In this document: piece after piece, positions 2,866 to 25,188 of the stretch | Numbering within the stretch: position 1 is the first letter of the stretch | Layout of the letters: each line of letters begins with the position of its first letter | NCBI GenBank assembly: GCA_012517155.1 | Contig: JAAYVN010000010.1 | Span: 1 to 59,199 of the forward strand | Direction of reading: 5' to 3' | Length of the DNA stretch: 59,199 nt | Source of the DNA: Ignavibacteriales bacterium | GTDB taxonomy: Bacteria; Bacteroidota; Ignavibacteria; Ignavibacteriales; Ignavibacteriaceae | Notes under the pieces: generated by a model | What the model saw: only the letters and a program-made list of their open reading frames with translations | The model's database searches: none | What the model was told of the DNA's origin: nothing | Translations under genes and position numbers: made by a program

Positions 2866-3022
2866 TACAAATTTTTTTGTTTGCTAATATAAAAAAAGAT
2901 TTATTTTATAAGCTACATTTCTAAAGAATCTTTTAGATTACGCTGTATCCCGTTCTTCTCTTTTCCTTTGTAGTGTTCATGGTAACAAATTATTTTTCTC
3001 CTATAAAAAAAAGGAGTTGGTT

Positions 3023-6000
3023 ATGAACACGTTAAAATTCTTTTTCTGCTCACTCGTATTTTTTTCTTTCGGGCTTAACGCTCAGTATCTTCTTCCTCCC
3101 GGCATGAATTTAAACACCCCATCCTTTAGCGGAGGCGGAGGCACACCCCCCTCCCCCGAAGCTGTTTCGCTGCTGAGGACATTTCAATCATCAAAACAAG
3201 CCTTTGGATATTCAGTGGCAGATGCGGGGGATCTGAACGGGGATGGCTACAATGATATTCTGATAGGTGCTTACGGCACTTCGCCGGAACCCGGATATGC
3301 TTATATTTATTTCGGAGGTCCTTCTGTTAAACTAATCCCCGACTTAATATTGACAGGAGAATTTGAAACAGATGGTTTTGGCATATCAGTTTCATCTGCC
3401 GGCGATATGAATGCCGACGGGTATGACGATATTGTGGTCGGCGCTTATGATTATGGACTTAAGCAAGGAGCAGCTTATGTTTATCTGGGGGGCGCTGTGA
3501 TGGATAATATTGCAGACAAGAAATTTGAAGGGCAATCTGATTACAGCTATTTTGGATTAACAGTTGCAAGCGCCGGCGACTTTAACGGGGATGGTTATGA
3601 TGATATTGTCATAGGATCTTATTTCGGCGATTATGGAATATCCCAGGCCGGTAATGCAATGATAATATTGGGTGCCGCAACCCTCCATTCCACTTTCGAT
3701 GCAATTCTTTATGGAGAAGCATACGATGATCGCTTTGGCTATTCTGTTGCAGGTGCAGGTGATGTTAACGGGGATGGCTATTCTGATATAATTATTGGAG
3801 CACCTATTCATGACGGTGGCGCCGGGCAAACAGGTGCGGCATATCTCTATTATGGAGGCTCTTCAATAAATACTGTTTATGATAAAAAATATTTAGGCAA
3901 TGCAGCTTACGACCAATTTGGATTTAGTGTTGCCGGTGCGGGGGATGTTAACGGAGACGGTTACTCTGATGTAATATTAGGGGCACCGTTAAACGACTAC
4001 AGCGCTTTATACGCAGGAGCCGCTTACGTATATTTCGGAGGTGTCTCTCCCGACGTTACACCTGATTTTAACTTTTATGGTACCAATTCGAATGATTATT
4101 TTGGTTACAGAGTATCCGGCGGGTGTGATATAAACGGGGATGGATATGATGACTTTTTAATAGCAGCACCCCTCAATGATGCCGGAGAAATAGATGCGGG
4201 GAGGGTTTATTTATTCTACGGTGGTGTAATGCTCGACAATATCCCGGACAATATTTTTTCGGGGGCTGGATCGTATTATTATTTGGGCTACGGAATCTCG
4301 TTTCTTAAAAACGTGGATGGTACCGGCAATAACGAGATCTTGATTTCCAGCTACTCCTTTAAAAAAGTTTATCTTTATACAAATAAAATTAGCGGTCCCG
4401 ATATTCCCGATTTGATTTTCACGGGTGCTGCAGCCGGTGATTATTTTGGGAACTCGGTTGCATCCGCTGGTGATGTTAACGGGGATGGTTATAATGACTT
4501 TATTGTTGGCGCGATTTCCAATGATGCGGGGGGATCGGAGGCGGGAAGGGCTTATCTCTACCTCGGCGGGTCAAATCTGGCATTCTCCAATGTTATTTAT
4601 CTTACCGGGACTACGGGGAATTATCTTGGTTATTCTGTCGCCTCCGCGGGTGATGTTAACGGGGACGGTTATGATGATGTTATCGTCGGAGCTCCATACG
4701 ACCATACTCTGGGAACCGCCTCAGGTTATGCAAACATTTATTTCGGAGGAGCGGTTATGGATGGTACCCCCGACTTAACCCTATGGGGTGCTTACGCAAA
4801 TGCCGCCTTCGGAGCATCTGTTGCTTCAGCGGGGGACGTAAATGGTGATGGATTTGATGACGTAATTGTGGGGGCTTTCGAAAATGATGTCTCCTTTACA
4901 GATGCCGGCGCAGCTTATCTCTATTATGGAGGTAACCCAATGAATAACGTATATGATCAGGCTTTTCTCGGAGAAACTGCCGCAGATAATTTTGGTGTTT
5001 CGGTTGCCCCCGCCGGCGATGTTAATGGCGATGGATATGCGGATATTCTGATCGGGGCTATTTACTACGACTATAATATGATGGCAAATTCCGGAAGAGC
5101 TTATTTATATTACGGCAGTTCTTCAATAGATGCTACCCCGGATTGTTATTTCAATGGAAGTGCCGCAGGGGATTATTTTGGCTTTTCGGTTGCCTCCGCC
5201 GGGGATATGAATGGAGACGGATACAGCGATATTGTAATCGGCGCTTATGCGAATGATGAAAGCAGCGATAACGCGGGTAAAGCAAATATTTATTACGGCG
5301 GTTATCTGATGGACAATATCTCCGATGTTTCAATGACCGGAGAAGCTGCAACAGACTATCTGGGGTGGAGCGTTGCTCCTGCAGGTGATGTAAACGGTGA
5401 CGGTTTTGACGATGTTCTTATCGGCGCACAATATAATCAGGCAGGGGGCTATAGAGCTGGAAGGGTATATTTATTGTTTGGCGGAAAGGAAAAAGATACC
5501 GCCCCTGATATAGTAATGACTGGTCCTCAGACAGATCTTCTGTTCGGTTGCTCAGTTGCATCTGCCGGGGATCTGAACAATGACGGTCTCACGGATTTGA
5601 TTATTGGAGCCAGAATATTTTCAACTAATAAAGGAAGAGTATATCTCTTTCTTTCCTCTGCGCCGGCAGTTGTTCCGCGAATCTTTTCCATAGAGGATAT
5701 CCCGCTTGACCAGGGGGGTGCCGTAAGAGTGAGATGGACAAGAAGCGGTTATGATTCCGAGGGGGAGAACAGAATTGAAAAGTATGTTTTGCAAAGAAGC
5801 AATCCCCCCGGCGCCAAAGGTTTTGTGTGGGATTATATAACGGAAATACCTGCAACCAGGGAAACCGGATATTCCCATATCACTACCACCCTCAGTGATT
5901 CCTCCGTAAGTTCCACAGCCACATATTATTTCCGGGTTGTTGCACGTGGAACGAATAATGACGAGGTCTGGTACTCATCCCCTGTTTCAGGACACAGTGT

Positions 6001-6847
6001 TGATAACCTCCCCCCTGCAGCAGTACAGAATTTTGCGGGCAACGTTGTTGCGGGAAATGTTCAGATGACCTGGAAAAAGAATACCGAAAGAGACCTTTAC
6101 GGATATTATATATACCGGGGCGCGGGTCCGGTTATTGATCCCGAAGTCACTCTTCCTCTTGCAGTGATTCAAACCACAACTTATACTGATAATAGTGTCC
6201 CTCCGGAGGGTGCATATTACTTTATAAGGGCAAAGGATATTAACGGCAATTTCTCATCACTGACTTCCCTTCCGGGAAATCCTCTGCCGGTTGAATTAAG
6301 TTCATTCTCCGGCAAGGTGTCCGGCGGAAGGGTTCATCTCAGCTGGATTACAGCCGTCGAAACAGATGTTTATGGCTTTTCCGTAGAGGTATGCAAAGGA
6401 GAGGAAGCCCTCTGGGAAACTGCGGGATTTGTTGGCGGAAGCGGAAACAGTAACTCGCCAAAGGAATATTCATTTACGGATAATATCTCAACCACCGGAG
6501 AAATTAAATACCGTCTTAAGATAATAAACAACAGCGGACTTTTTGAGTATAGTCCGGAAATAGAAGTTGCGGTTGGTCTGCCGGATGAATTTGCACTGTC
6601 ACAGAACTACCCCAATCCCTTCAATCCGGTTACAACAATTGAATACCGTCTTCCGGAAAGAAGCGAGGTACGAATGATAATTTATGATGCTTCAGGCGTG
6701 GAAGTATCCCGGCTTCTACAGGAAGTACAGGAACCCGGTTATTATACTTTGAAGTTTAATGCCGACAGATTTTCTTCGGGTGTATATTTTCTAAGACTTG
6801 AAGCGGGTAAGTTTACAAGTGTTAAAAAAATGGTGTTGATACGATAA
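3023..6847 (+). CDS. Secreted 14-repeat FG-GAP (integrin-like) protein with sorting domain
   Basis: A 1274-residue surface or secreted protein. ATG 3023 is preceded at six bases by a perfect AAGGAG (3011-3016), which decides the start over an in-frame TTG at 3017. A signal peptide ends near FGLNAQ. About residues 60-870 hold fourteen FG-GAP repeats of roughly 58 residues, each with the calcium-binding loop pattern DxNGDGYxD. The seventh is degenerate (VDGTGNNE). Fourteen equals two seven-bladed beta-propellers. Two fibronectin type III-like modules follow (about 880-1080), then a linker and the C-terminal sorting domain beginning QNYPNPFNPVTT, ending in VKKMVLIR. Such proteins are usually adhesins or matrix proteins; the ligand is unknown. 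Confidence 0.9.
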   Translation: MNTLKFFFCSLVFFSFGLNAQYLLPPGMNLNTPSFSGGGGTPPSPEAVSLLRTFQSSKQAFGYSVADAGDLNGDGYNDILIGAYGTSPEPGYAYIYFGGPSVKLIPDLILTGEFETDGFGISVSSAGDMNADGYDDIVVGAYDYGLKQGAAYVYLGGAVMDNIADKKFEGQSDYSYFGLTVASAGDFNGDGYDDIVIGSYFGDYGISQAGNAMIILGAATLHSTFDAILYGEAYDDRFGYSVAGAGDVNGDGYSDIIIGAPIHDGGAGQTGAAYLYYGGSSINTVYDKKYLGNAAYDQFGFSVAGAGDVNGDGYSDVILGAPLNDYSALYAGAAYVYFGGVSPDVTPDFNFYGTNSNDYFGYRVSGGCDINGDGYDDFLIAAPLNDAGEIDAGRVYLFYGGVMLDNIPDNIFSGAGSYYYLGYGISFLKNVDGTGNNEILISSYSFKKVYLYTNKISGPDIPDLIFTGAAAGDYFGNSVASAGDVNGDGYNDFIVGAISNDAGGSEAGRAYLYLGGSNLAFSNVIYLTGTTGNYLGYSVASAGDVNGDGYDDVIVGAPYDHTLGTASGYANIYFGGAVMDGTPDLTLWGAYANAAFGASVASAGDVNGDGFDDVIVGAFENDVSFTDAGAAYLYYGGNPMNNVYDQAFLGETAADNFGVSVAPAGDVNGDGYADILIGAIYYDYNMMANSGRAYLYYGSSSIDATPDCYFNGSAAGDYFGFSVASAGDMNGDGYSDIVIGAYANDESSDNAGKANIYYGGYLMDNISDVSMTGEAATDYLGWSVAPAGDVNGDGFDDVLIGAQYNQAGGYRAGRVYLLFGGKEKDTAPDIVMTGPQTDLLFGCSVASAGDLNNDGLTDLIIGARIFSTNKGRVYLFLSSAPAVVPRIFSIEDIPLDQGGAVRVRWTRSGYDSEGENRIEKYVLQRSNPPGAKGFVWDYITEIPATRETGYSHITTTLSDSSVSSTATYYFRVVARGTNNDEVWYSSPVSGHSVDNLPPAAVQNFAGNVVAGNVQMTWKKNTERDLYGYYIYRGAGPVIDPEVTLPLAVIQTTTYTDNSVPPEGAYYFIRAKDINGNFSSLTSLPGNPLPVELSSFSGKVSGGRVHLSWITAVETDVYGFSVEVCKGEEALWETAGFVGGSGNSNSPKEYSFTDNISTTGEIKYRLKIINNSGLFEYSPEIEVAVGLPDEFALSQNYPNPFNPVTTIEYRLPERSEVRMIIYDASGVEVSRLLQEVQEPGYYTLKFNADRFSSGVYFLRLEAGKFTSVKKMVLIR

Positions 6848-9052: not shown

Positions 9053-9075
9053 AAAAGGGGGCTTTGTAAGCCCCC
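9053..9075 (-). terminator. Intrinsic terminator of the signalling operon
   Basis: On the minus strand a GGGGGCTT/AAGCCCCC stem (9057-9064 with 9068-9075) with a three-base loop runs into TTTT (9053-9056 read in reverse). It lies 11 bases past the stop of the 38-residue gene and before the hexosaminidase start, marking the operon end. Confidence 0.85.
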
Positions 9076-9086
9076 CGATGTATTCT

Positions 9087-9203
9087 TTAAAACATTGCAA
9101 CTATCAGCAGGTAAACAACCAGCGCCACAATACTGAAACCCATTGTGCCGATAAAAATGTAAAACGCCGTTTTATTTCCTTTATCTTCTTTTTGCATTTC
9201 CAT
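9087..9203 (-). CDS. 38-residue single-pass membrane protein
   Basis: A short frame of 38 residues starting MEMQKEDKGNKTAFY. Residues 1-11 are charged; residues 13-38 form one hydrophobic helix (FYIFIGTMGFSIVALVVYLL) reaching almost to the C-terminus. An AGAGG Shine-Dalgarno lies eight bases before the ATG and a strong intrinsic terminator follows, so the frame has the punctuation of a real gene. It is the last gene of the run that includes the kinase, AAA+, FHA and phosphatase genes. No known family was recognised. It could be a small regulatory or anchoring subunit of that system, but this is inference from position only. Confidence 0.6.
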   Translation of the reverse strand: MEMQKEDKGNKTAFYIFIGTMGFSIVALVVYLLIVAMF

Positions 9204-9269
9204 AAAGATATCCTCTCATAATGTTTAGAAATTACTTAATTAAATTTGAGCGGTATTTAATCTGGATTT

Positions 9270-9620
9270 TTATGGATCTGTATAGAGATATGCCGTAAGG
9301 AAAGTTCGGAATGATATTAACGGACTGAAATCGGTTTTTGCAAGTTGTGAAATTCTTGTGACTTTTACTTTGCTGGGAGAATGGTTAGGTGCATTTCCCG
9401 TCCAGTTAGGAGATTGTGTCTTTTCCGGTTGGAAATTTCTTAACGCGGTCGTGGCACAATCTGCCGGAGGAAGTGAGGTGATGGCAATTTCGTTTTGATT
9501 TGTGGGCTGAACATAATGCGAGGTTTCCCCCGAAAGCATGTTTAAAAGTAAAATAACGGGGAGTAAAAAACCCGCTATCTTCTTTATTCTGAAAAACAGA
9601 TTGGAAATTTTAATAGTCAC
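9270..9620 (-). CDS. Small exported or membrane-anchored hypothetical protein
   Basis: A 116-residue protein of unknown family. It starts with GTG ten bases after the phosphatase stop, so it is almost certainly co-transcribed. The N-terminus is basic then hydrophobic (IAGFLLPVILLLNML, about 15-29), fitting an uncleaved anchor or a signal peptide. The remainder is Thr-, Pro- and Asn-rich and probably disordered, ending FRTFLTAYLYTDP. No catalytic or metal-binding pattern is visible. A frame this long may occur by chance, but the start spacing, the hydrophobic segment and the following small membrane gene support it. Confidence 0.5.
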   Translation of the reverse strand: MTIKISNLFFRIKKIAGFLLPVILLLNMLSGETSHYVQPTNQNEIAITSLPPADCATTALRNFQPEKTQSPNWTGNAPNHSPSKVKVTRISQLAKTDFSPLISFRTFLTAYLYTDP

Positions 9621-9629
9621 GTGCCAAAT

Positions 9630-10379
9630 TTAGCACAATATTGAGATTAAAACAATGCTGATATTATCTTTTCCTCCGGCTTTTTTAGCTTCTTCCAGGA
9701 GAGGATGAGCACCGGTTTCACGGTTCAGTATTGTTTCTATGACTTCATCTGGAAGCATGTCCGTCAGTCCGTCGCTGCACAAAATAAAATTATCGCCTGA
9801 CGAAATAAATGGCGTCATTTCCTTTAAATCAACAAAGACGGCATCCCCGCCCCCTATGGAGTTTAAAAGAATATGGGATTGTTTCCTTTGAATCCCGGAA
9901 ACTTCCGCCAGTGAGTGGTCCTTTGACAGTTGTTTAAGAATTCCGTTCCGGAAACGATAGCATCGGCTGTCTCCAATATTTATAAGGTATACTTTTTCGG
10001 AGTAAAAAAGGAGTCCTACTAAAGTAGCCCCCATTCCTTTCTTGCTGATGTCTTTTTCCCCCTCGTCCATAAATTCTTTGTGGAGTTTTGTGTAGAATTC
10101 TGTAATGGCTTTTGTAAGTTGAGCCTCAGAGAGTCCGTTCTTAAGCAGTTGTACAAATTCTGATGACTTATTGAGAACTAGTTCACTTGCTATCTCTCCG
10201 GCCTGATGGCCCCCCATTCCATCCGAAACAGCGATAAAAAACGGACGGGCATTCGGTTCAATTTCTATCCCGTAGTCATTATCCATTTCCCGGAAATATT
10301 CATTTCCGACAAGCACCATGTCCTGATTAACTTTTCTCTTGATTCCTACATCGCAAACCGCTTCTATTTTGAGCTGCAC
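9630..10379 (-). CDS. PP2C-family Ser/Thr protein phosphatase
   Basis: A 249-residue cytosolic, metal-dependent PPM/PP2C phosphatase of the bacterial Stp/PrpC type. All key motifs are visible: NQD near residue 19, AVSDGMGGHQAGEIAS near 50-66 (metal aspartate), GATLVGLLF, NIGDSRCYRF, CSDGLTDML and GGKDNISIVLI at the end. It probably reverses the phosphorylation made by the kinase encoded upstream at 14471-17449. It sits 16 bases after the FHA gene in the same transcript. The pairing of kinase, FHA protein and PP2C resembles the PpkA-PppA-Fha control set of type VI secretion, but no secretion genes are in the window. Confidence 0.95.
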   Translation of the reverse strand: MQLKIEAVCDVGIKRKVNQDMVLVGNEYFREMDNDYGIEIEPNARPFFIAVSDGMGGHQAGEIASELVLNKSSEFVQLLKNGLSEAQLTKAITEFYTKLHKEFMDEGEKDISKKGMGATLVGLLFYSEKVYLINIGDSRCYRFRNGILKQLSKDHSLAEVSGIQRKQSHILLNSIGGGDAVFVDLKEMTPFISSGDNFILCSDGLTDMLPDEVIETILNRETGAHPLLEEAKKAGGKDNISIVLISILC

Positions 10380-10395
10380 AAACTCTCCTTGTATT

Positions 10396-11112
10396 TTATA
10401 CTCTTACAGTTGCATCGCTATCCGGTGGGGCAGCAATTTGTATTATGAATTCAACATTTGCCAGTACTACCCTGCAGTTGTTGGTTAACTGTGTGGGTTG
10501 ATTTGGCGGAATCCTAATTCCGTTAACCTTAACTCCGTTCGAAGAGTTCAGATCGGTGATCATAAAACCCCGTAGCGGATCTTGTGTTATCTGTGCGTGC
10601 TTCCCGGAGATCTGATTAAGCTTGCCGAATACGTGCGTGAAGTTCCCGGTTTTTCTGCCGATTATATCGCCGTTCTTAAGGTCAATTTTTATTGCAAGTG
10701 TGTTATTTGTAAAAGTCACACAGTCTCCCGCGGATGCTTGAGCGTTGGAGTTATTCCCTGCGTATCCTGACCATTCATCTTCTTGCTGCCCGGTGTTGGT
10801 TTTAGGGGTTAGGGGAGTTGCCGGTTGCCCAGCCTGGGGCACGGGTATGTTCGTTCCCACAAAGTGCTGTTGATATTGTGTCTGGGCTGTTCCGGTTGCC
10901 CCCATTGTGGTTTGACCGGCGCTTGTTTGGGTTACATCTGTTTGCACATTTGGATTAAAAGCTTTTGCGGGAATAAGTTTGCTGCCGTCTTGAGTGCACC
11001 GCTTTCCTTTGCCCGGATTCTTGCAGGCGGGGCATATCAGGATCTCCTCGCCGCACTGGTCGCAGTAAAAGGAGTCGCGCTCTATTTCGTTTTTGCATGC
11101 GGGACATATCAT
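10396..11112 (-). CDS. Zinc-ribbon/FHA protein with C-terminal DATVRV tail
   Basis: A 238-residue phospho-threonine reader. Residues 1-23 form a CPxC...CxxC zinc ribbon (MICPACKNEIERDSFYCDQC) and a second Cys cluster follows (ICPACKNPGKGKRC). A Gln/Thr/Pro-rich linker (about 50-130) leads to an FHA domain (about 135-228) with the conserved GR, SGKHA and SSNGVKVNG elements that contact phospho-threonine. The last six residues are DATVRV, the motif that also occurs in the kinase N-terminal tail. By analogy with GarA/OdhI-type proteins, whose own N-terminal threonine binds their FHA domain once phosphorylated, this tail could be a phospho-switch. The start codon overlaps the AAA+ gene stop by four bases. 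Confidence 0.9.
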   Translation of the reverse strand: MICPACKNEIERDSFYCDQCGEEILICPACKNPGKGKRCTQDGSKLIPAKAFNPNVQTDVTQTSAGQTTMGATGTAQTQYQQHFVGTNIPVPQAGQPATPLTPKTNTGQQEDEWSGYAGNNSNAQASAGDCVTFTNNTLAIKIDLKNGDIIGRKTGNFTHVFGKLNQISGKHAQITQDPLRGFMITDLNSSNGVKVNGIRIPPNQPTQLTNNCRVVLANVEFIIQIAAPPDSDATVRV

Positions 11113-14100
11113 ATGTTAAAATCCTCGGGAATAATTTTATTCAGTATTTCTTTTGTGATATTCGGGTCGTTCAATAGCGGGGTTACCCGGTCACTCTGTT
11201 GCTGCTTTACTTTTCCGAAAATATTGCGGACGGTGCGTGCGTTTGCAAAATTCTCGTCACGGTTTTCATATACTCGGGTAAAGTATTCGGGGAGCATTCG
11301 TTCAACTTCGGGGTCGAGTATCATATCGGCATCTTTGACCATTTTTTTGAATATAAGTACAAGTTCGTCTGGACCGTAATCCGGGAAATTGATCGTTCGG
11401 TTAAAGCGGGATTCAAGACCTGAGTTCATCGAAATGAAGTCGCGCATTTCCTTTGTGTAGCCGGCTGCGATACAGATAAACCTCCCCTTGTCATCTTCAA
11501 GACGTTTTATCAAAGTGTTTATTGCCTCGGAGCCGAAATCCCCCTCCCCACCTGAAGCAAGCGAGTATGCTTCGTCAATGAAAAGAATTCCTCCAAGCGC
11601 CGAGTTAACAACCTTGTCGGTCTGAGTTGCTGTCTGACCAACAAAACCCATTACCAGCTTTGAACGGTCTACCTCGATAAGTTGACCCCTGGGCAGTAAC
11701 CCGATTGCCTTGAAAATATCTGCCACGATTCTTGCAACGGTAGTTTTTCCGGTTCCCGGATTTCCTGTAAATATAAAATGCAGGTCAAGCGAAGATTTCT
11801 CCCCCCCAAGTTCTACTCTTTTTTTCTCCACCTGCAGATAGCTTGCAAGGGAGCGGAGTTCCTTCTTTATATCATTGAGTCCGATAAGTGAATCAAGTTT
11901 TTTGAATATATCATCCATGTTAACTGCTTTTTCCCCCTTCGGCTCAATATCTTCACGGATAAGTATCATCGGGTCAATCGGGGCAGTTGGATTTTCTTTT
12001 AAGATGCGTGCAACTCTCGAGCTTTGTCTCTGAAGTGCTGCCTGCATTATGTTTCTTACTTCCCGCGCATTCCCGAAGTTCTTATCCTTGGCGGCATGAA
12101 CATTCTTGAAAAACTTCCCAATCCATTCATCTGTTTCTGCATCGAGTTTATATTCAGCACCTTTAACCATCTTTCTGAAAATTTCAGCAAGTTCATCCGG
12201 AGTGTAATCGGGAAAGTTGATCCACTTCGTAAAGCGGGATTTAAGTCCGGGATTTGTGTCAATAAATTCGTTCATTTCCTTGGTATAGCCTGCAGCAATG
12301 CAAATGAATTTCCCCTGATCGTCTTCAAGGCGTTTTACCAGGGCATCCACGCACTCCTTGCCGAATGAGGAACCGTCCGAAGTTATGGAGTATGCCTCAT
12401 CGATGAAAAGAATTCCCCCCAGAGCGTCATCCACCACATTGTGGGTTTTTATCGCTGTCTGGTCGGAATAACCGGCAACAAGTTTGCTCTTGTCTACCTC
12501 AACCAGATGGCCGCGCGAGAGGAGCCCGACTGATTTGAATACATCTGCGACAATTCTTGCCACGGTGGTTTTTCCGGTCCCCGGATTTCCGGAAAAAACA
12601 AAGTGGAGATTGAGTCGTGTTTCCTTTCCCCCTGCAGCGGCTTTAAGCTTCTGCATGTTGAGAAAATCAATCAATGATGTAATCTCATCCTTGATTGACT
12701 TCATACCGGTAAGGGCGTTCAGTTTAGCCATTATCTCATCTGTACCAACTTCCTTCTTCTCTTCGTAAGGAATATCTATCGGAAGAATTGTTGTGTATGC
12801 ATCAGGAGTTTTCCTGTCTGCCGGAAGCGAGGAGAGCCTGGACGACTGGCGGATTCTGGTTTCATCGAAGAGGATTCTCATTTCGCGTCCGTTAGCAAAA
12901 GTTTTGGTTCTCCGGTCGTAAAGATCCTTGATAACTTTTGTAGCAAGGTGTTCAGCCTCTTCGGTGAGAATGAATTTCTGTTTCCCGAAAAATCCTTTAT
13001 ATATCTCCATTAATTCATCGGGGGTGTAGTCGTCAATATGAAGTTGTCTGTTGAACCGGCTGCGGAGACCGTCATTAGCCCTGAGGAACCGCTCCATCTC
13101 GGTTTTGTAACCCGCGGCAATAACAATATATTTCCCCCGGTCATCCTCCATACGCTTCATAAGTGTTTCAACTGCTTCCGTGCCGTATTGGTCCTTCGAA
13201 CCACCGTCAGATGCAGGGGTAAGCGCATAAGCTTCATCAATGAACAGAATTCCTCCGGCCGCACGGTCACATGCTGCCCCAACTAATTTGGGCGTTTCTC
13301 CTACAAATTCCGAAACCAGTTTACTTCTGTCAACTTCCACTACATGTCCACTGTCAAGATAGTTTATCGCTGCAAAGATATCACCAAGCTGGCGCGCAAT
13401 GGTTGTTTTTCCTGTCCCGGGGTTTCCGGTTAGGACAATATGTATCCCCATTTTCTCGGCTGGACCTAATCCAAGTTGTTCCCGTTCCTTTGCGGCGGCA
13501 ATATCCTTTGCTATTTCACGTATAGCTTTTTTCACAGATTCCATTCCGATGAAGCCTTCCAGTTCCTTCATCACCTGTTCCAGCGATTTCTCCTCAGGGA
13601 TCTTTCCGACAATATCTTCAGGAAGAACAATGTTGTCGTCCTTGGCTCCTTTTGCTACCCGGGAAAGATAAACCTTGAAAATCTCCTCGGCAACACTTAG
13701 GGAATAATGCGCATTCCCGAAGGTGTCATCCTTGGTTTTGTACGCCTGCTTAAATAATGCCTTTAACCGTTTTGCAGCTTCATCGCTTAAATGGAGGTGG
13801 TAACTGCTTAACCGCGTTTCACAGATTAGGAAAAGTTCGGGATTTGTGAAGTCGGGCAAGCGGAAGAAATATTCGAACCTGTTTCTGATGGAAGGATTTT
13901 TTCTGAGGAATTCTTCAAAACCACTGGGAAGACCGGCAAGTACTACAATCGGATCACAGTCAAAATGTTCCATTTCCGAAAAGAGCTTGTCGAGAAGATT
14001 AATATCTGTTGCGTAACCACCGGGAACAAGTTTCTGCGCATTGTCAATAAACAGTATTCCCCCTTTTGCCTTTTTGATGTTGTTCTGAAAGTCATCCGAG

Positions 14101-14453
14101 AAGTCGGGGTAGTCAACAGCATCCACCCTGTAAACGGTTGGTTTGGTTATTATCTTGTGGCGAAAATATAATTGTTGAAGGACATTCACAAGCTGACTTT
14201 TTCCTGTTCCGGTGTTTCCAATAATCAGTGTGTGAAGGTTAATCTTGGTTTTAGCCCCTGAACCAGACTGGCGCGAGCGGATCGCATTATATATCCCGAC
14301 AATCTTCGAGACTTCGTTTTTTACGGAGGATAGTCCCACCAATGATTCCAGTTCTGTGGTTGCAGCGCTGTAAAGCCCTTCGCCGCATTTTTTGCAGTAC
14401 TTTGCGATGCTTCTGTTCTCACTGCCGCATTTTTCGCATTTAAGAGAGTTCAT
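11109..14453 (-). CDS. Quadruple AAA+ ATPase (CbbX/SpoVK/EccA class) with zinc ribbon
   Basis: An 1114-residue protein. Residues 6-23 form a zinc ribbon (C6, C9, C20, C23). Four AAA+ modules about 280 residues apart follow. Module 1 has Walker A GNTGTGKS (79-86) but a Walker B of LFIDNAQ, in which the catalytic Glu is replaced by Asn138, so it probably binds but does not hydrolyse ATP. Modules 2, 3 and 4 each carry GNPGTGKT (343-350 in module 2) and LFIDEAY. Each has the helical lid and GN/AR sensor segments of the CbbX/SpoVK class, whose members remodel Rubisco or act with ESX secretion. The target here is unknown. It lies 17 bases after the kinase and overlaps the FHA gene, suggesting phospho-control of a remodelling machine. 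Confidence 0.9.
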   Translation of the reverse strand: MNSLKCEKCGSENRSIAKYCKKCGEGLYSAATTELESLVGLSSVKNEVSKIVGIYNAIRSRQSGSGAKTKINLHTLIIGNTGTGKSQLVNVLQQLYFRHKIITKPTVYRVDAVDYPDFSDDFQNNIKKAKGGILFIDNAQKLVPGGYATDINLLDKLFSEMEHFDCDPIVVLAGLPSGFEEFLRKNPSIRNRFEYFFRLPDFTNPELFLICETRLSSYHLHLSDEAAKRLKALFKQAYKTKDDTFGNAHYSLSVAEEIFKVYLSRVAKGAKDDNIVLPEDIVGKIPEEKSLEQVMKELEGFIGMESVKKAIREIAKDIAAAKEREQLGLGPAEKMGIHIVLTGNPGTGKTTIARQLGDIFAAINYLDSGHVVEVDRSKLVSEFVGETPKLVGAACDRAAGGILFIDEAYALTPASDGGSKDQYGTEAVETLMKRMEDDRGKYIVIAAGYKTEMERFLRANDGLRSRFNRQLHIDDYTPDELMEIYKGFFGKQKFILTEEAEHLATKVIKDLYDRRTKTFANGREMRILFDETRIRQSSRLSSLPADRKTPDAYTTILPIDIPYEEKKEVGTDEIMAKLNALTGMKSIKDEITSLIDFLNMQKLKAAAGGKETRLNLHFVFSGNPGTGKTTVARIVADVFKSVGLLSRGHLVEVDKSKLVAGYSDQTAIKTHNVVDDALGGILFIDEAYSITSDGSSFGKECVDALVKRLEDDQGKFICIAAGYTKEMNEFIDTNPGLKSRFTKWINFPDYTPDELAEIFRKMVKGAEYKLDAETDEWIGKFFKNVHAAKDKNFGNAREVRNIMQAALQRQSSRVARILKENPTAPIDPMILIREDIEPKGEKAVNMDDIFKKLDSLIGLNDIKKELRSLASYLQVEKKRVELGGEKSSLDLHFIFTGNPGTGKTTVARIVADIFKAIGLLPRGQLIEVDRSKLVMGFVGQTATQTDKVVNSALGGILFIDEAYSLASGGEGDFGSEAINTLIKRLEDDKGRFICIAAGYTKEMRDFISMNSGLESRFNRTINFPDYGPDELVLIFKKMVKDADMILDPEVERMLPEYFTRVYENRDENFANARTVRNIFGKVKQQQSDRVTPLLNDPNITKEILNKIIPEDFNI

Positions 14454-14470
14454 AGTTTAAAACTTTTTTG

Positions 14471-17449
14471 TTAAAATATCATTTTTATTATTCCCGTAAT
14501 CACTTCGGTTATCGTGAAATATTCTTCATCGTAGTGGAGCAGTATTTCCCAGAGGGCAAGAAGCGCAACGGTTCCTAGAAGTGAGTACTTTAAGATTGTG
14601 AACTTTGCTTTCCGTCTGTTGGCAACATATTGCGTTATTATGTTTTCCCGGGTGCTGATGAATTTTGTGTCCTTGCTGTATGTATACCGGAGCGGTTCAT
14701 ATATCATCGAGTTTTTATCAGACTTATCAAACAACTGACTTTTTACATTCTTGTTGCTGTAGTTGCTTTTAATTATCATGTATATCACATATCCCGCTCC
14801 CGCAGCAATGAGGGGGATAAATACTATTTTGATTCCAATTACAAAGTAAATCACATAATAAAGAACAACACCGGCTATCAGTCCTATTATGGGCCCACCG
14901 ATGCAGCCCGTGCTGAAGTCCATCTGTCCATCCTCCTTCATACCGAGAAAAGTGAAGACGGTGACTATTCCGGCTACCACTACATAATAAAGGAATGGAA
15001 CATTCCAGAAGCCGCCGGGAAGGGGATTTGCGGACATATCAATGACGTATAAAATCAATCCTAGTGCAGCTAAAAGCGGGAAGAGGGCTGCAATGCCAAG
15101 ACCAATCATGAACCGGCGGTCAACAGCTTTGTTTTTGTCGATCAATTTGTAGAGCCGGTTCTTTGCTTCGTTGTATTTTTCGGTGAACTTGTTCTTCGGT
15201 GCTAGTTTAGAAATAAAATCGGTGTACTCGAGCAGTTTATCTTCGTATCCTGCTTTTGTAAAAGGATCTTCATGGAAAAAGACTGAAAGCCATGCATTCA
15301 GGACCGAACCGCTATCGTTAACAGCTTCTTGAATTTTCTTCATAGTATCAGGATCGGCGTCCAGTAGTTCTTTTGGTTCATTAAAATCCTTATCGTTCGC
15401 CGTGTACTGAATATTAGTTCCGAGGGACTTAACTACCTTCATTAGCGCAATGCGGGTATTGTAAACACCGATTTTCTTTTTGTGTTTTTTCATGTCAAAG
15501 CAATAACGGAGAAAGTCGAGTTGATCATCCCAGCGCTTTGCCTGGAAATAGACATGAACATAGGAATGAGCATACTTAAGCCTTTCCGTGTATGTGTCAA
15601 TATTTCTCAGAAGTGCAGCGCCCACCTCCGCTTTTGTATGGCAAAACTGTTCGTCCTCCGAAAAATAACCGCGGTTTTTATCAAGCGAAAAACAGAGCCC
15701 CATAAGTCCCGCATCTTTATCCACCTCTTCATAATTCTTTCGCCAGTATTCAACCCAGTTATACATATTCGCGTCATCTTTATGACGGAACCAGGCGGAG
15801 ATATGTCCTCCATAGATATAGCCCATTCCCTCGTCTTCGTGGTCAATGAGAGCGTCCACCAGTTCCTCTTGGGTGCTGACTATGGTCAGCGTTTTGCCCT
15901 CGTCGTCTTTTTTGTGTTTGAAACGGAAAGGCCTGTCGGGGGCAAGCGAGTAAATAATGTTAAGAAGAGCAACGTCGTCGGAATAATCCTTGTAAAATGC
16001 GAGAAGTTTTTTAGCCTGTTTCGCCTCCCCCTTGCTTGAAAGATAAAGATAAAAACTGTCGTTCTTGTTTTTTAGTTTTTTCTTGTAACTGTCAAAATTA
16101 TTTTCAAACGCTTCTGCGAATTCTTTTATGGAAGTGCACGTTGTTCCGTCAATCGCAGTATATGGCATTTCCGGATCGAGCAGATATGCGGCCAGGTGAA
16201 GTCCTGAGGAAGTGTCCTTCGGATACACCGACTCGACAATATCATCAATTTCCACAGCAAGTTTCTGATTGTTCGATTCCTCAAGCCATTTGGATATTTT
16301 CCCTCTGTATAAATATTTTTCACCGATGTCAGGATACTTAAGAAGCATAGGTGCAAGAGCTTTCGGCGTTTTTGCAATAAGATTTTTCTCGGTATCAAAG
16401 AGGAACGGCTTGTAGTTGGTATCTATTATTTGTTCAATCAGCGGGACATCTTCCCCTTTGAGCCATCGCTCAACCTCATCTGCCCCCCAGCGGTTATCTT
16501 TTTTAACAATAGTGAGTCCTCGGACAAGTTTATTCAAATCAGGGGGAAGGTCGTCAGGAATAGGGATCTTTCCCTCGCTCTTTATTCCCATAAGTGCGAA
16601 TTCGTTTATTCCCTTGAATGGGTTATCACCAAGCCATATAAAAAGGAGGGCAATTCCGAGTGCGTAGTAATCGACTTCTTTTGCAACTATTACTTTCTCC
16701 TTGATGCTTTGATAAAGCTCCGGGGCGGCGAAGTAAGGAGTTCGTGCCTGTCCCGTAAGCTGCATCGTAAGATCATCGTCGAGAAGTGAAGAGATGCCAA
16801 AATCCCCTATAATTATATCCGTGCCGTCGGCATTCTTATAAAAAAGATTTCCGGGTTTTATATCCCGGTGAATGATCCCGTGCTGATGGCAGAATTTGAG
16901 TGCGTTGACGGTTTCCTTTATAATTTGTTTAAGTTTTTTAACGTCCTTTATCGGCAGGTAGTCTTCTACACTCCCGCCGGCTGCAAATTCCATAAGTTCA
17001 AAGAACCGCTCGCTGAAATAACCATAATCAAAAACTTTTATTATATCCTCATGAGTGAAAGACCTGAGTTTTTTTAGCAGGTCTTCCTTCGGGTGCATTC
17101 CGTGTTTATAGAGTTTGAGTACGTACTTGTCTTTTTTGTTGTCCTCAATAAGATAAATACTCGCCTCGCCAGTGTTGAGCGAAATCGTCTTCACCAGTTT
17201 ATATACTTTATCGTTAAGCATGAACGTATCTGTTTCGTCCGAGATAGCATCCTTCAAAGCAGCTGGAATAACCGGTGCGGCTCCAATAATATCGCTTCCG
17301 GTTCTTACGGTTGCATCCGCATCGGTATCCGCCGGCAAAGTGTTAGCGCTTATTTCTCCCCCCGATACCCGCACTGTGGCATCGCTGTTTAAGTCGGACG
17401 GTATGGTATTGCTGTCCGATCTGACGGTTTTATCGTTGTCTTCGATCAT
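14471..17449 (-). CDS. Membrane-bound Hanks-type Ser/Thr kinase with DATVR tail
   Basis: A 992-residue kinase. The N-terminal tail (1-75) is acidic and low in complexity and carries three TVR sites: T8 (KTVRS), T25 (DATVRV) and T47 (DATVRT). The kinase domain (about 82-335) has HRDIKPGN, DFG and an activation segment ending TPYFAAPE. A long helical region rich in Lys, Asp and Tyr (about 340-775) may be a repeat solenoid. Four or more transmembrane helices lie at about 780-895 and one more near 950-965, so the kinase faces the cytosol from a C-terminal membrane anchor. A GGAG precedes the ATG. It should phosphorylate itself and partners in the operon; the TVR threonines are the obvious candidates. 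Confidence 0.9.
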   Translation of the reverse strand: MIEDNDKTVRSDSNTIPSDLNSDATVRVSGGEISANTLPADTDADATVRTGSDIIGAAPVIPAALKDAISDETDTFMLNDKVYKLVKTISLNTGEASIYLIEDNKKDKYVLKLYKHGMHPKEDLLKKLRSFTHEDIIKVFDYGYFSERFFELMEFAAGGSVEDYLPIKDVKKLKQIIKETVNALKFCHQHGIIHRDIKPGNLFYKNADGTDIIIGDFGISSLLDDDLTMQLTGQARTPYFAAPELYQSIKEKVIVAKEVDYYALGIALLFIWLGDNPFKGINEFALMGIKSEGKIPIPDDLPPDLNKLVRGLTIVKKDNRWGADEVERWLKGEDVPLIEQIIDTNYKPFLFDTEKNLIAKTPKALAPMLLKYPDIGEKYLYRGKISKWLEESNNQKLAVEIDDIVESVYPKDTSSGLHLAAYLLDPEMPYTAIDGTTCTSIKEFAEAFENNFDSYKKKLKNKNDSFYLYLSSKGEAKQAKKLLAFYKDYSDDVALLNIIYSLAPDRPFRFKHKKDDEGKTLTIVSTQEELVDALIDHEDEGMGYIYGGHISAWFRHKDDANMYNWVEYWRKNYEEVDKDAGLMGLCFSLDKNRGYFSEDEQFCHTKAEVGAALLRNIDTYTERLKYAHSYVHVYFQAKRWDDQLDFLRYCFDMKKHKKKIGVYNTRIALMKVVKSLGTNIQYTANDKDFNEPKELLDADPDTMKKIQEAVNDSGSVLNAWLSVFFHEDPFTKAGYEDKLLEYTDFISKLAPKNKFTEKYNEAKNRLYKLIDKNKAVDRRFMIGLGIAALFPLLAALGLILYVIDMSANPLPGGFWNVPFLYYVVVAGIVTVFTFLGMKEDGQMDFSTGCIGGPIIGLIAGVVLYYVIYFVIGIKIVFIPLIAAGAGYVIYMIIKSNYSNKNVKSQLFDKSDKNSMIYEPLRYTYSKDTKFISTRENIITQYVANRRKAKFTILKYSLLGTVALLALWEILLHYDEEYFTITEVITGIIKMIF

Positions 17450-17518
17450 CCAAATCTCCGTTTATTATCGTATTGTGTTTATCATTTCAGTAGAAAATGA
17501 GCCGTCCTGGGCGGCGGA

Positions 17519-18439
17519 TCACTTTCCGTAATCAATAATCCATTTGCCCCCCAAGTCGGGACGGGCACAGTCATGCGGGCCGGGATGTACATAATGAACG
17601 TAGTTACATTCCCACATAAGATTACTGGCGGGTTTATTTGCGTTATAGAAACACCGCGCCTGCTGAGGCGTTTCGAACGTCTGATTTTGTGCCGAACTAA
17701 GCTTATTAATCAGTTCCTGTTGTTTCTGTTCAAGCTCTTTTTTTCTGTTGATTGCCGCATCAAGTCTTTTTTTGTCCTCTTCGCTGAAGAGAGGCTTTGG
17801 TTTTGCTGCAGGAGTTGGAACTTCTTTTTTTGTTGAATTTTGTTCTTTCAGAGCCTGAATCTGCAGCAGTATTGCCCTTTTCTCTGCTTTCTCCTGTTCG
17901 GCTTTTAGCTGTTCGGGAGTTTTTATCGGTTCCGGCAACGGAGAGTTCTTTTCTATTTCCGCTTTAATTTTTTCTGCTTCAAACTGAAGACGCAGAAAGT
18001 CCTGTAATACCGGATTTTGTTGGGCTGCCCGAATTGCATTTTGAGCAGATTCGGATAGGGGAGTATTGCATTTTTTACAAAAATCAAAGAAATTCTTAGT
18101 ACCGCACTTCGGGCAGATAATACCCATTGCGGGGTTCCCGCATTCGGGACAAAATGCATCATCCGGTTTAATGGAGGAATAACAGAAGCGGCATTTCCCG
18201 GGAAGCAGCCACTCGCCGCAAGCCTCACAAATATCCGCCCCGGGGTAAGTTAAAGCATTGCAGTTGGGACAATGGTTTCCCTCGATAGAGGCACCGCAGT
18301 CAGCGCAGAATTTATCCCCCTCCGCTATATCAGCCTTACAAGAGGGACATTGTAACTTTTGCTGTTGTTTCTCTTTCTCTTTTGTTTGAGTTTTGTTGAG
18401 AAACTTGTTTTTTGTGAGGTTTTCCCGGGACACAATCAC
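17519..18439 (-). CDS. Multi-zinc-ribbon (DZANK-type) protein with coiled coil
   Basis: A 306-residue cytosolic protein. Residues 30-125 hold five tandem zinc-ribbon-like CxxC pairs (CPSC...CADC, CPNC...CEAC, CRFC...CPEC, CPKC...CKKC). A Glu/Lys/Gln-rich coiled coil follows (about 140-250). The C-terminal 50 residues contain Cys and His (MWECNYVHYVHPGPHDC) that may bind another metal. The frame starts with GTG 18439; no ATG is available near the first ribbon. It precedes the kinase by 69 bases and is probably the first gene of the signalling operon, whose kinase-adjacent AAA+ and FHA proteins also begin with zinc ribbons. A scaffold or adaptor role is inferred. Confidence 0.8.
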   Translation of the reverse strand: MIVSRENLTKNKFLNKTQTKEKEKQQQKLQCPSCKADIAEGDKFCADCGASIEGNHCPNCNALTYPGADICEACGEWLLPGKCRFCYSSIKPDDAFCPECGNPAMGIICPKCGTKNFFDFCKKCNTPLSESAQNAIRAAQQNPVLQDFLRLQFEAEKIKAEIEKNSPLPEPIKTPEQLKAEQEKAEKRAILLQIQALKEQNSTKKEVPTPAAKPKPLFSEEDKKRLDAAINRKKELEQKQQELINKLSSAQNQTFETPQQARCFYNANKPASNLMWECNYVHYVHPGPHDCARPDLGGKWIIDYGK

Positions 18440-18507: not shown

Positions 18508-18552
18508 AAAAAAGGAATCCGCAATGTGATTTTCTGTTCGGTTCTTGCGGAT
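18508..18552 (-). terminator. Intrinsic terminator after the SulP gene
   Basis: On the minus strand ATCCGCAA (18552-18545) pairs with TTGCGGAT (18524-18517) across a 20-base loop, and a run of six T follows (18513-18508). It is placed a few bases after the SulP stop and separates that unit from the signalling operon. Confidence 0.8.
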
Positions 18553-23421: not shown

Positions 23422-25188
23422 ATGAAAGCAGCAGTACATTTCAAAGGGCTTAATTTTCTCGCACTGATTTTCTTAGTGATTTTTCCGGGAATCAATATTG
23501 CGCAGATTTTGCCACCGGACACATTATTTACAAAAACGTATGGCGGGAGCGGGATAGATTTGGGAACTTGTTTAAGACAAACCAATGACGGGGGGTATGT
23601 AATAACCGGGTACACCCGCTCGTACGGAACTGCTGCGGGAAGGAACATTTTATTGATTAAAACAGATCCGGTTGGAAATCCTGAGTGGATTAAAGGGTTC
23701 GGGGGAAGTGGTGACGATGAAGGAAACTGTGTTCGGCAGACTCCGGACGGCGGATTTGTTATTGCCGGATATACCAAATCATACGGAAGCGGCGGAACGG
23801 ATGTTTTTTTAATGAAAACAGATTCATTGGGGAATGAACTTTGGAACAAACCATTTGGCGGGGCCCAGGATGACGAGGGATACGGACTGGTGATTACAGC
23901 TGATGGTGGATTTCTCATAGCCGGTGCGACATCATCATCGGGAGCCGGAAGCAGGGACGTCTTTCTGGTTAGGACAGATCCGAATGGGAATTTGCTGTGG
24001 ACAAAAACACATGGAGGAATGAGTTCCGACGGAGCGAGAAGCATTGAACCGACATCAGACGGAGGTTATATCATTAGCGGCTGGAGCATGTCATACGGGG
24101 GTGTGCTGGGGAATGCTTGGTTGGTAAAAACAGATTCGGCGGGGAATATGAGTTGGCACAAGAATTTTGGTGGAAGTGATGCGGACAGAGGAATGCATGC
24201 AATACAAACTTCGGATGGGGGATGTGCGTTTACCGGTTATACGGCATCCTCGGGAGCAGGACTTGACGATATGTACTTAGTGAGGACTGATGGATCGGGG
24301 AATGAACTGTGGGTAAAAACATTTGGCGGAACAGGAAGGGATTATGGCAACTCAATACAACAGACAGCCGACGGAGGTTTTCTTATATTGGGATATACGC
24401 TTTCGTTTGGTGCAGGAAGCGAGGACTTTTTCTTGGTAAAGACAGACGCAGCCGGGAATCAACTCTGGTATAAAACTTATGGCGGTTCTGCCTCAGATGT
24501 CGGGAACTCAGTCGGAATTACAGCTGACGGAAGTTTCCTTTTGCTTGGATATACCTTGTCCTATGGGGCGGGAGTGCATGATGTCTGGTTCATTAAACTT
24601 GGAACAGTTATTCCGGTAGAGCTAACTTCGTTTATTGCTTTCGAAGAGGGGAGCGACGTTATTGTAAAATGGACTACAGCCAGCGAGACGAATAATAGGG
24701 GATTTGAAATTGAGAGAAGCAGAAAGAATATGGTTGAAAACAAATCAGCCGGGTGGAAAACAGTTGGTTTTACAGAAGGCATAGGGACTTATGCAGGGGA
24801 AACAGAATACGGCTTCAGGGATAAGAATTTACTTCCCGGCAAATATATATACCGGCTCAGGCAAATTGACTACAATGGAGAGATTGCATACAGCGAAGAG
24901 GTGGAAGTGGAAATTTCACAAGCAGGGAAACTCGCACTTTATCAAAACTATCCCAATCCATTTAATCCGGTAACCATGATAAGTTTTTCGGTCCCCGTAA
25001 AAACTTTGGTAACATTAAGCGTTTATGATCTTCTGGGTAAAGAAATTGCGGTTTTGTTAACAGAAGTAAAAGAACCGGGAGAATATGACGTGCAGTTTAA
25101 TGCCGAAAAACTTGCTGCGGGTGTTTATTACTACACACTTATCTCCGGGGATGAGCGATTGACACAAAAGTTAATACTCTTAAAATAA
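23422..25188 (+). CDS. Secreted seven-repeat beta-propeller protein with sorting domain
   Basis: A 588-residue secreted protein. A signal peptide ends near GINIAQ. Residues 30-390 hold seven repeats of about 50 residues built as KTFGGSGxDxGNxxxQTxDGGFxIxGYTxSYGAG then DxxLxKTDxxGNxxW, a pattern seen in many Bacteroidota surface proteins and expected to fold as a seven-bladed propeller. A linker with VELTSFIAFEEG and a beta-sandwich (about 400-500) precede the sorting domain starting QNYPNPFNPVTM and ending LTQKLILLK. Ligand or substrate unknown; there are no catalytic motifs. Probably exported by type IX secretion. Confidence 0.85.
   Translation: MKAAVHFKGLNFLALIFLVIFPGINIAQILPPDTLFTKTYGGSGIDLGTCLRQTNDGGYVITGYTRSYGTAAGRNILLIKTDPVGNPEWIKGFGGSGDDEGNCVRQTPDGGFVIAGYTKSYGSGGTDVFLMKTDSLGNELWNKPFGGAQDDEGYGLVITADGGFLIAGATSSSGAGSRDVFLVRTDPNGNLLWTKTHGGMSSDGARSIEPTSDGGYIISGWSMSYGGVLGNAWLVKTDSAGNMSWHKNFGGSDADRGMHAIQTSDGGCAFTGYTASSGAGLDDMYLVRTDGSGNELWVKTFGGTGRDYGNSIQQTADGGFLILGYTLSFGAGSEDFFLVKTDAAGNQLWYKTYGGSASDVGNSVGITADGSFLLLGYTLSYGAGVHDVWFIKLGTVIPVELTSFIAFEEGSDVIVKWTTASETNNRGFEIERSRKNMVENKSAGWKTVGFTEGIGTYAGETEYGFRDKNLLPGKYIYRLRQIDYNGEIAYSEEVEVEISQAGKLALYQNYPNPFNPVTMISFSVPVKTLVTLSVYDLLGKEIAVLLTEVKEPGEYDVQFNAEKLAAGVYYYTLISGDERLTQKLILLK

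Follow-up and report, generated by a model that had tools for sequence, protein, structure and literature searches.

The operon lies at positions 9053–18439 of the window, by which we mean the whole stretch of 59,199 nucleotides of Ignavibacteriales DNA that was analyzed. ORF calls and their spacings confirmed seven consecutive genes on the minus strand, the strand on which all the operon features and motifs located below also lie. The first gene, ZNR (17519..18439), encodes a multi-zinc-ribbon protein of 306 aa. It is followed by KIN (14471..17449), a 992 aa Hanks-type Ser/Thr kinase with a helical middle and C-terminal membrane segments; AAA (11109..14453), which has an N-terminal zinc ribbon, recognized by eye, and four CbbX/SpoVK-type AAA+ modules; FHA (10396..11112), in which zinc ribbons, a linker, an FHA domain, and a C-terminal tail succeed each other; and PP2C (9630..10379), a Ser/Thr phosphatase of 249 aa. 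Two small ORFs lie beyond PP2C: one of 116 aa (9270..9620) without a match in Pfam, PADLOC, or NCBIfam, and a hydrophobic one of 38 aa (9087..9203), read from the sequence and without a Pfam match. The tight spacing claimed in the original prediction was borne out, with gaps of 69 bases between ZNR and KIN, 17 between KIN and AAA, and 16 between FHA and PP2C, a 4-base overlap of AAA and FHA (−4), and gaps of 9 bases between PP2C and the 116 aa ORF and 66 between the two small ORFs. A terminator had also been placed on each side of the operon. Both elements are visible by eye, as a terminator-like hairpin 3′ of the operon (GGGGGCTT-ACA-AAGCCCCC-TTTT, 9053..9075) and as a weaker, long-loop stem (ATCCGCAA/TTGCGGAT, then a T run; 18508..18552) between the SulP gene and ZNR, but neither appears in the output of a consensus terminator scan.

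The first five genes (ZNR, KIN, AAA, FHA, and PP2C) are a conserved cassette. We found 16 loci in total, 14 of which contain all five genes (the window, G006, G053, G016, ACE_BAC35 [L060], G050, G049, L065, L066, L067, G422, G444, G657, and G838) and two of which (G720 and G435) are fragments cut by contig ends. Conserved linkage in related genomes was the check set beforehand, and the presence of the five genes together in 14 loci provides it. Among the 13 complete loci that lie on one contig, the order ZNR-KIN-AAA-FHA-PP2C is found in 12, and the single exception is L065 (KIN-AAA-FHA-PP2C-ZNR); the G049 cassette is split across two contigs in a way that is compatible with the common order. 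An initial scan of contigs with a single protein as the query gave no matches. Additional loci were found with one member as the query (AAA, the C-terminal half of the kinase, or ZNR), and every strong match that we mapped had the remaining cassette genes beside it as far as the contig extended. The small ORFs fared differently. In the five loci compared, the 116 aa ORF has no counterpart 3′ of PP2C, where the following proteins differ, and it is probably outside the system. Both it and the 38 aa ORF, which had been counted as parts of the machine, were rejected as cassette members for lack of conservation in the other loci, where only the first five genes are kept. The earlier description of a self-contained, phospho-regulated remodeling unit thus holds for its linkage, its CbbX-class AAA+ protein, and its zinc-ribbon proteins, but not for the inclusion of the small ORFs.

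The cassette is distributed sparsely. A search with AAA of 59 genomes (the window's own and 58 relatives) returned copies starting in the N-terminal ribbon in five relatives, and each of these neighborhoods contained the same genes on one strand (over two contigs in G049). When the first AAA module was compared with a public genome collection, nine loci were recovered, five of which had already been found (100% identical proteins) and four of which (L060, L065, L066, and L067) were new. The loci of the five relatives are labeled Ignavibacteriaceae, Melioribacteraceae, Ignavibacteria, or Ignavibacteriae, L060 is labeled Ignavibacteriaceae, L066 Prevotellaceae, L067 Bacteroidales, and L065 uncultured bacterium. 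A profile of the C-terminal half of the kinase matched 6 of 395 genomes in a sample of the phylum, the window's own genome included. The ZNR profile matched 9 of 391 genomes in a sample of the class, seven strongly and two through weak, short matches; in the order around G422 it matched 13 of 393, of which four matches were strong, eight were weak and short, and the fifth actual copy stands at a contig end and was confirmed by the adjoining kinase and AAA genes. Trees of AAA, PP2C, and ZNR have many weak forks and long branches, and each groups G016 with ACE_BAC35 and L065 with G838.

Several loci contain additional genes, and the flanking genes vary from locus to locus. A SUKH (SMI1/KNR4)-like gene lies between ZNR and KIN in G050 (L045 3288-4082) and in G049 (L069 4665-5198, below the Pfam cut-off) and 3′ of PP2C in G053 (L043 10445-10966); the three carriers belong to one family. 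Other insertions are a WG-repeat ORF (L065), additional ORFs (G838), and an AAA fragment (G444). Of 106 flanking proteins, at most three shared any one Pfam family. In L067 and G444, PP2C is followed by two homologous genes (L067 14814-16119 and L119 16930-18395; 33% and 29% identity), the first encoding a DUF1963 protein, and the pair are possible accessory genes. A DDE transposase gene (L122 17166-18602) directly upstream of the G838 cassette hints at mobility. A short ORF preceding the G444 cassette (L119 6532-6792) is similar to the C-terminal portion of one that follows the G657 cassette (L120 16309-17214), with 38% identity over 68 residues. IMG/VR yielded one weak match (25% identity, L124), and the 250 matches in plasmid records were all below 60% identity, the best 20 of the 250 being at 26%–31%.

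Pfam bears out the predicted domain content, namely a kinase, a PP2C phosphatase, an FHA domain, the zinc ribbons of ZNR, and four AAA modules that have AAA_lid_6 matches. KIN matches Pkinase (1.9e-31) and has the catalytic loop HRDIKPGN and hydrophobic segments near residues 782–872 and 952–970. The loop was recognized by pattern in 15 of the 16 kinases, and the sixteenth reads HMDMKPKN; in G838 the kinase ORF is without a membrane segment and the neighboring ORF has one. An AF2 model of the C-terminal half of the kinase (mean pLDDT 85.1, 7 sequences) is mainly helical. A Foldseek search with it found nothing in the PDB at E 0.001 or better, and the best score in a second fold comparison (Z 7.3) fell in a long-helix region, where the tool itself warns of common arrangements. 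The helical and membrane-spanning half is a candidate sensor. ZNR matches DZR/Zn_Ribbon; several zinc ribbons are followed by a middle region that is helical and charged and by a C-terminal domain of the W.C..H..P..C..P..GG.W type, and the protein has residues conserved over 11 loci. Its AF2 model (mean pLDDT 72.7, 9 sequences) likewise matched no PDB entry at E 0.001. FHA matches the FHA family (3.7e-13) and, under the Pfam cut-off, a DZR ribbon (1.9e-05). Its binding residues in the window are GR, SGKH, and SSNG; across the loci, GR and [SN][ST]NG are present in 14 of 14 and S-x-x-H in 13 of 14. PP2C matches its Pfam family (8.7e-13) with the aligned motifs SDGMGGH, GDSR, SDGL, and GGKDN.

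A kinase, a PP2C phosphatase, and an FHA protein encoded together are also the constituents of the threonine phosphorylation pathway of type VI secretion (PpkA, PppA, and Fha/TagH), as outlined in PMC3953482, and EccA of type VII secretion belongs to the same AAA clade as the cassette protein, so we considered whether the cassette is a remnant or a remote control module of such a secretion system. We searched 12 carrier genomes, the four carriers known from named records being outside this set, and found neither the T6SS sheath family PF05591 (0 of 12) nor the WXG100 family of T7SS substrates (0 of 12); among 14 control genomes, PF05591 was matched in E. coli and WXG100 in B. subtilis and T. 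maritima. PF17541, which we take to be the Bacteroidota-type T6SS family (TssC), matched none of the 12 carriers and none of the control genomes. The FHA protein scored 22.1 bits against the TagH model TIGR03354, for which the cut-off is 120.25. A T6SS or ESX control module was therefore rejected on the absence of PF05591 and WXG100 from the carriers searched; we consider this explanation highly improbable, and the original claim that this is not a T6SS or ESX locus holds. The cassette further departs from the T6SS pathway in placing the candidate docking array on the kinase itself, in having an FHA protein with zinc ribbons, and in adding a tandem CbbX-type AAA+ protein to the operon.

The AAA+ proteins of the different loci have three to six modules. 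All six sequences compared share C6, C9, C20, and C23 of the N-terminal ribbon, and in the window each of the four modules has an AAA_lid_6 match over the cut-off. The first module is degenerate in most loci. In the window (13599-14453, ribbon included) Walker B reads FIDN in place of FIDE, and the same replacement of the catalytic Walker B Glu by Asn is found in 10 of the 16 first modules (the window, G006, G053, G016, ACE_BAC35, G050, G049, L065, L066, and G422). Neither Walker motif was recognized in the first module of L067, the Walker B pattern had no match in those of G838, G444, G657, and G720, and Walker B is intact (GGIVFIDEV) in that of G435. Each window module scores best with the NCBIfam model for SpoVK and below every equivalog cut-off: 114, 236, 263, and 275 bits against SpoVK TIGR02881 (cut-off 422.95), at most 210.3 against CbbX TIGR02880 (459.25), and at most 217.7 against EccA TIGR03922 (466.65). 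The whole protein exceeds these cut-offs (SpoVK 866.6, EccA 679.6, and CbbX 659.8 bits) because four repeats are summed. The SpoVK/CbbX/EccA clade is described in PMC10659427, in outline, as dedicated chaperones with narrow targets. The cassette protein shares the AAA_lid_6 modules with this clade and has SpoVK as its best-scoring NCBIfam model, and it differs from the clade as characterized there in having three to six modules per chain, an N-terminal zinc ribbon, a degenerate first module, and a fixed linkage with kinase, FHA, and PP2C genes. Tandem modules alone are not the novelty, because the same genome encodes a three-module paralogue: a 1309 aa protein (contig C22, L005 6395-10324) with CbbX/SpoVK-type modules. 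By eye, the paralogue has a TPR-like N-terminal part, and its gene lies near an apparent DNA polymerase I gene; long AAA proteins like it gave matches in many of the relatives searched.

The best scores against the SpoVK model, the dedicated chaperone role attributed to its clade, and the membrane segments of the kinase would all fit a chaperone that serves one enzyme of the cell envelope, as has been proposed for SpoVK and MurG, with the kinase only tuning its activity. Against this, the flanking proteins include no Pfam family present in more than three of the 106, and the cassette is missing from most of the genomes sampled, unlike an envelope housekeeping factor. We regard an envelope chaperone as rather improbable.

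A role in biological conflict was also considered. The kinase might sense infection and the AAA+ protein act on a phage or host protein, and the fast-changing threonine codes described below would insulate the system or let it escape interference. The patchy occurrence of the cassette (6 of 395 genomes in the phylum sample with the kinase profile) among differing neighbors is in line with this idea, as are the SUKH-like genes in or beside three loci (two with matches over the Pfam cut-off and one with a match under it), the match of the kinase domain to MADS mad6, and a weak match of PP2C to PDC-M21C. We scanned the 106 flanking proteins, which come from 13 loci, against PADLOC and examined the best 25 of the 38 families matched. 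The matches include a type II methyltransferase (2.4e-48), mad3 (4.6e-48), PDC-M37B, and PDC-S01, with one or two proteins each, and also DolB; each model was matched by four of the 106 proteins at most. Matches were placed for 20 of the 106, and these placements comprise single genes in L060 (two) and L120 (one) and an ATPase gene in L043. Contig L120 has a gene for the candidate defense protein PDC-S01 (L120 18462-19787, 5.8e-61) about 2.4 kb downstream of the G657 cassette. Within the cassette, however, the PADLOC matches of the kinase and AAA proteins are confined to common domains, the kinase scores 80.8 bits against the MADS6 (MAD6) equivalog model (cut-off 460), and no nuclease or toxin family is among the Pfam matches listed. 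ZNR and FHA matched no PADLOC model, and a known PADLOC defense system was rejected for this reason. Because of the patchy distribution and the defense-like matches in some flanks, a defense role keeps a place among the explanations, and we judge it unlikely. The GTPase-centric conflict systems with kinase-PP2C-vWA triads sketched in PMC7159879 resemble the cassette in combining a kinase that has a zinc ribbon or TM helices with a neighboring PP2C gene; as far as that description goes, the cassette has FHA and a CbbX-type AAA+ protein in place of their other components. No vWA, MoxR, or GTPase family, by which a ternary or GTPase-centric conflict system would be recognized, was among the Pfam matches listed for the six operon proteins (for AAA, the best 25 of 67).

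The original prediction overlooked three features that hold most of the mechanistic information: the kinase has a threonine-repeat tail, FHA has a copy of the tail motif, and the first AAA module is degenerate. The N-terminal tail of the window kinase (17225..17449) contains three threonine motifs, DNDKTVR (17420-17440), NSDATVR (17369-17389), and DADATVR (17303-17323), and the FHA protein ends in the matching motif DSDATVRV (10399..10422). Repeated threonine motifs in a low-complexity tail were recognized by eye at the N terminus of 12 of the 16 kinases. In the window's order the motif is DxDKT[VI]R, and all seven FHA proteins of that order have it at the C terminus. There are 27 matches to the pattern [DE].T[VIL]R in the N-terminal tails of the seven kinases, one per FHA protein at the C terminus (seven of seven), and none in the seven ZNR, seven AAA, and seven PP2C proteins of the order; three more matches were found in other ORFs of the first 11 neighborhoods (135 ORFs in all). 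At the DNA level, D-x-[DE]-K-T-[VI]-R gave 20 matches in five other carrier genomes and one with the reversed control, and the 20 sites comprise 15 in kinase tails, four at FHA C termini, and one elsewhere (G049 contig 74). In these five genomes the motif is almost confined to the kinase and the FHA protein. A looser pattern, applied to the window's own genome, matched 11 times, three times in the operon and eight times in short frames or within unrelated ORFs; as the reversed control gave 10, the looser pattern alone is not specific there.

In other lineages, different motifs are repeated in the kinase: DKTL[KRS] seven times in G444, a GTQR type seven times in G657, E[PS]T[RKH]K six times in L066, QGTA[VA] (PQGTAV) 10 times in L067, and DGTD three times in G720. 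In L065, G838, G435, and G422 there are one or two matching sites, and a repeat is not clear. A PQGTA pattern matched the L067 genome 13 times (10 in the kinase tail, one in the FHA linker, and two in short frames), and the reversed control matched it twice. We counted exact triplets in shuffled tails and took a repeat as supported unless the observed number was attained in over 5% of the shuffles. It was supported in 9 of the 16 tails and was not singled out in the other seven (the window, G006, ACE_BAC35, L065, G838, G435, and G422), a count in which DKT and DAT sites are scored apart because it uses exact triplets.

In the 14 loci in which an FHA protein was present for comparison, the contig-end loci G720 and G435 being outside this set, that protein usually has a motif like the one in the kinase, and it can change where the kinase repeat changes. 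The L067 FHA linker contains IPQGTAVSPQ; DKTKKL terminates the L065 FHA protein, against KKTKR and DKTQK in the kinase; DKTERV terminates the G838 FHA protein, against EATER in the kinase; and in G657, SSTLRG in FHA corresponds to SSTIRP in the kinase. The match is weak in L066, G444, and G838, and in G422, where the kinase has one DDKTI, a matching motif is absent from FHA. We compared the best threonine-centered window of each kinase tail with that of each FHA linker or tail in eight divergent loci, the window representing its order, and permuted the partners. In this exploratory test, which was devised after the pattern had been seen, covers eight loci, and uses statistics that ignore phylogeny, 12 of 40320 permutations reached the observed kinase-FHA sum. 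Substitution of other members of the order for the window gave 12 to 17 of 40320, four other window widths gave 27 to 124 of 40320, and omission of the window and L067 gave 12 of 720. The same permutations showed no signal with the control partners ZNR (39052 of 40320), PP2C (23730), and AAA (37417). These results support covariation of the kinase tail and the FHA motif, as judged from the sequences.

The covariation could also arise if the motif in the FHA tail is simply the consensus site of the kinase and the FHA domain reads a different partner, without docking on the kinase. A shared kinase site would likewise place matching motifs in both proteins, and GarA-like proteins are an example of control through phosphorylation of a protein's own tail. 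Like GarA/OdhI-type regulators, in which an FHA protein has a phosphorylatable tail threonine, the cassette FHA protein has a tail motif that could be phosphorylated; unlike in those regulators, the kinase carries repeats of the motif, and the two vary together. The repetition in the kinase tail (10 copies in L067 and seven in G444) is more easily explained as multivalent docking, and throughout the window's order (seven loci) the motif is lacking in ZNR, PP2C, and AAA, which would be the nearest other substrates. For these reasons we doubt that the motif is a consensus site alone.

The reading that we prefer, and consider somewhat more probable than its negation, is that the five proteins constitute a phospho-switched remodeling machine with a docking array on the kinase tail, an FHA reader, an AAA+ remodeler, and a PP2C reset. 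A kinase with a threonine array, an FHA reader with the same site, and a PP2C would make a closed switch. That FHA proteins can dock in this manner has a precedent in the T6SS of Agrobacterium, in which, according to the account in PMC3953482, Fha binds a phosphothreonine of the inner-membrane component TssL. In the machine we propose, a signal would be sensed by the helical and membrane-spanning C-terminal half of the kinase, which would then phosphorylate its own tail array and so create several docking sites for the FHA protein. The kinase would also phosphorylate the matching site of the FHA protein, and this might lead to FHA self-association or to competition with the tail, as a feedback. 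Clustered FHA protein, acting with ZNR and by means of its zinc ribbons as putative adaptors, would recruit and activate the tandem AAA+ protein near the membrane. The degenerate first AAA module might be structural or regulatory, later modules would hydrolyze ATP and remodel one dedicated target, and PP2C would reset the switch. The AAA+ protein is a candidate effector of the kinase switch, and no target candidate recurs beside the cassette.

We also advance, more tentatively and at slightly less than even chances, a bolder idea about the code itself: the expandable docking array of the kinase and its FHA reader, which bears the same address, would drift together, so that the phospho-code is self-addressed and private to each lineage, and the array would nucleate a membrane-associated assembly that switches an AAA+ protein of three to six modules. 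We infer the phosphorylation, the binding, and the target. If the idea is correct, the cassette represents an unnamed class of bacterial signaling machine. It belongs to a known kind, the switch of Hanks kinase, FHA protein, and PP2C, here joined to a tandem AAA+ remodeler. We searched the literature, in which subscription journals were thinly covered, and found no description of this gene combination; a figure legend in PMC10659427 refers to operons of this AAA clade with zinc-binding domains, and that figure may depict a related operon.

The writer, the eraser, the reader, the reader site, and the candidate effector machine are contained in one compact set of five genes, and because all parts are encoded together, full reconstitution of a bacterial phosphothreonine switch could be feasible. 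The lineage-specific motifs offer a natural test of coevolution between a kinase, its docking array, and an FHA reader, and the cassette may show what tandem CbbX/SpoVK-type AAA+ proteins do.

Elsewhere in the window, the products of two genes (3017-6847 and 23422-25188) each bear a Por secretion C-terminal sorting tail, and FG-GAP repeats are also present in the first. These sorting tails suggest that the organism may possess a type IX secretion system.
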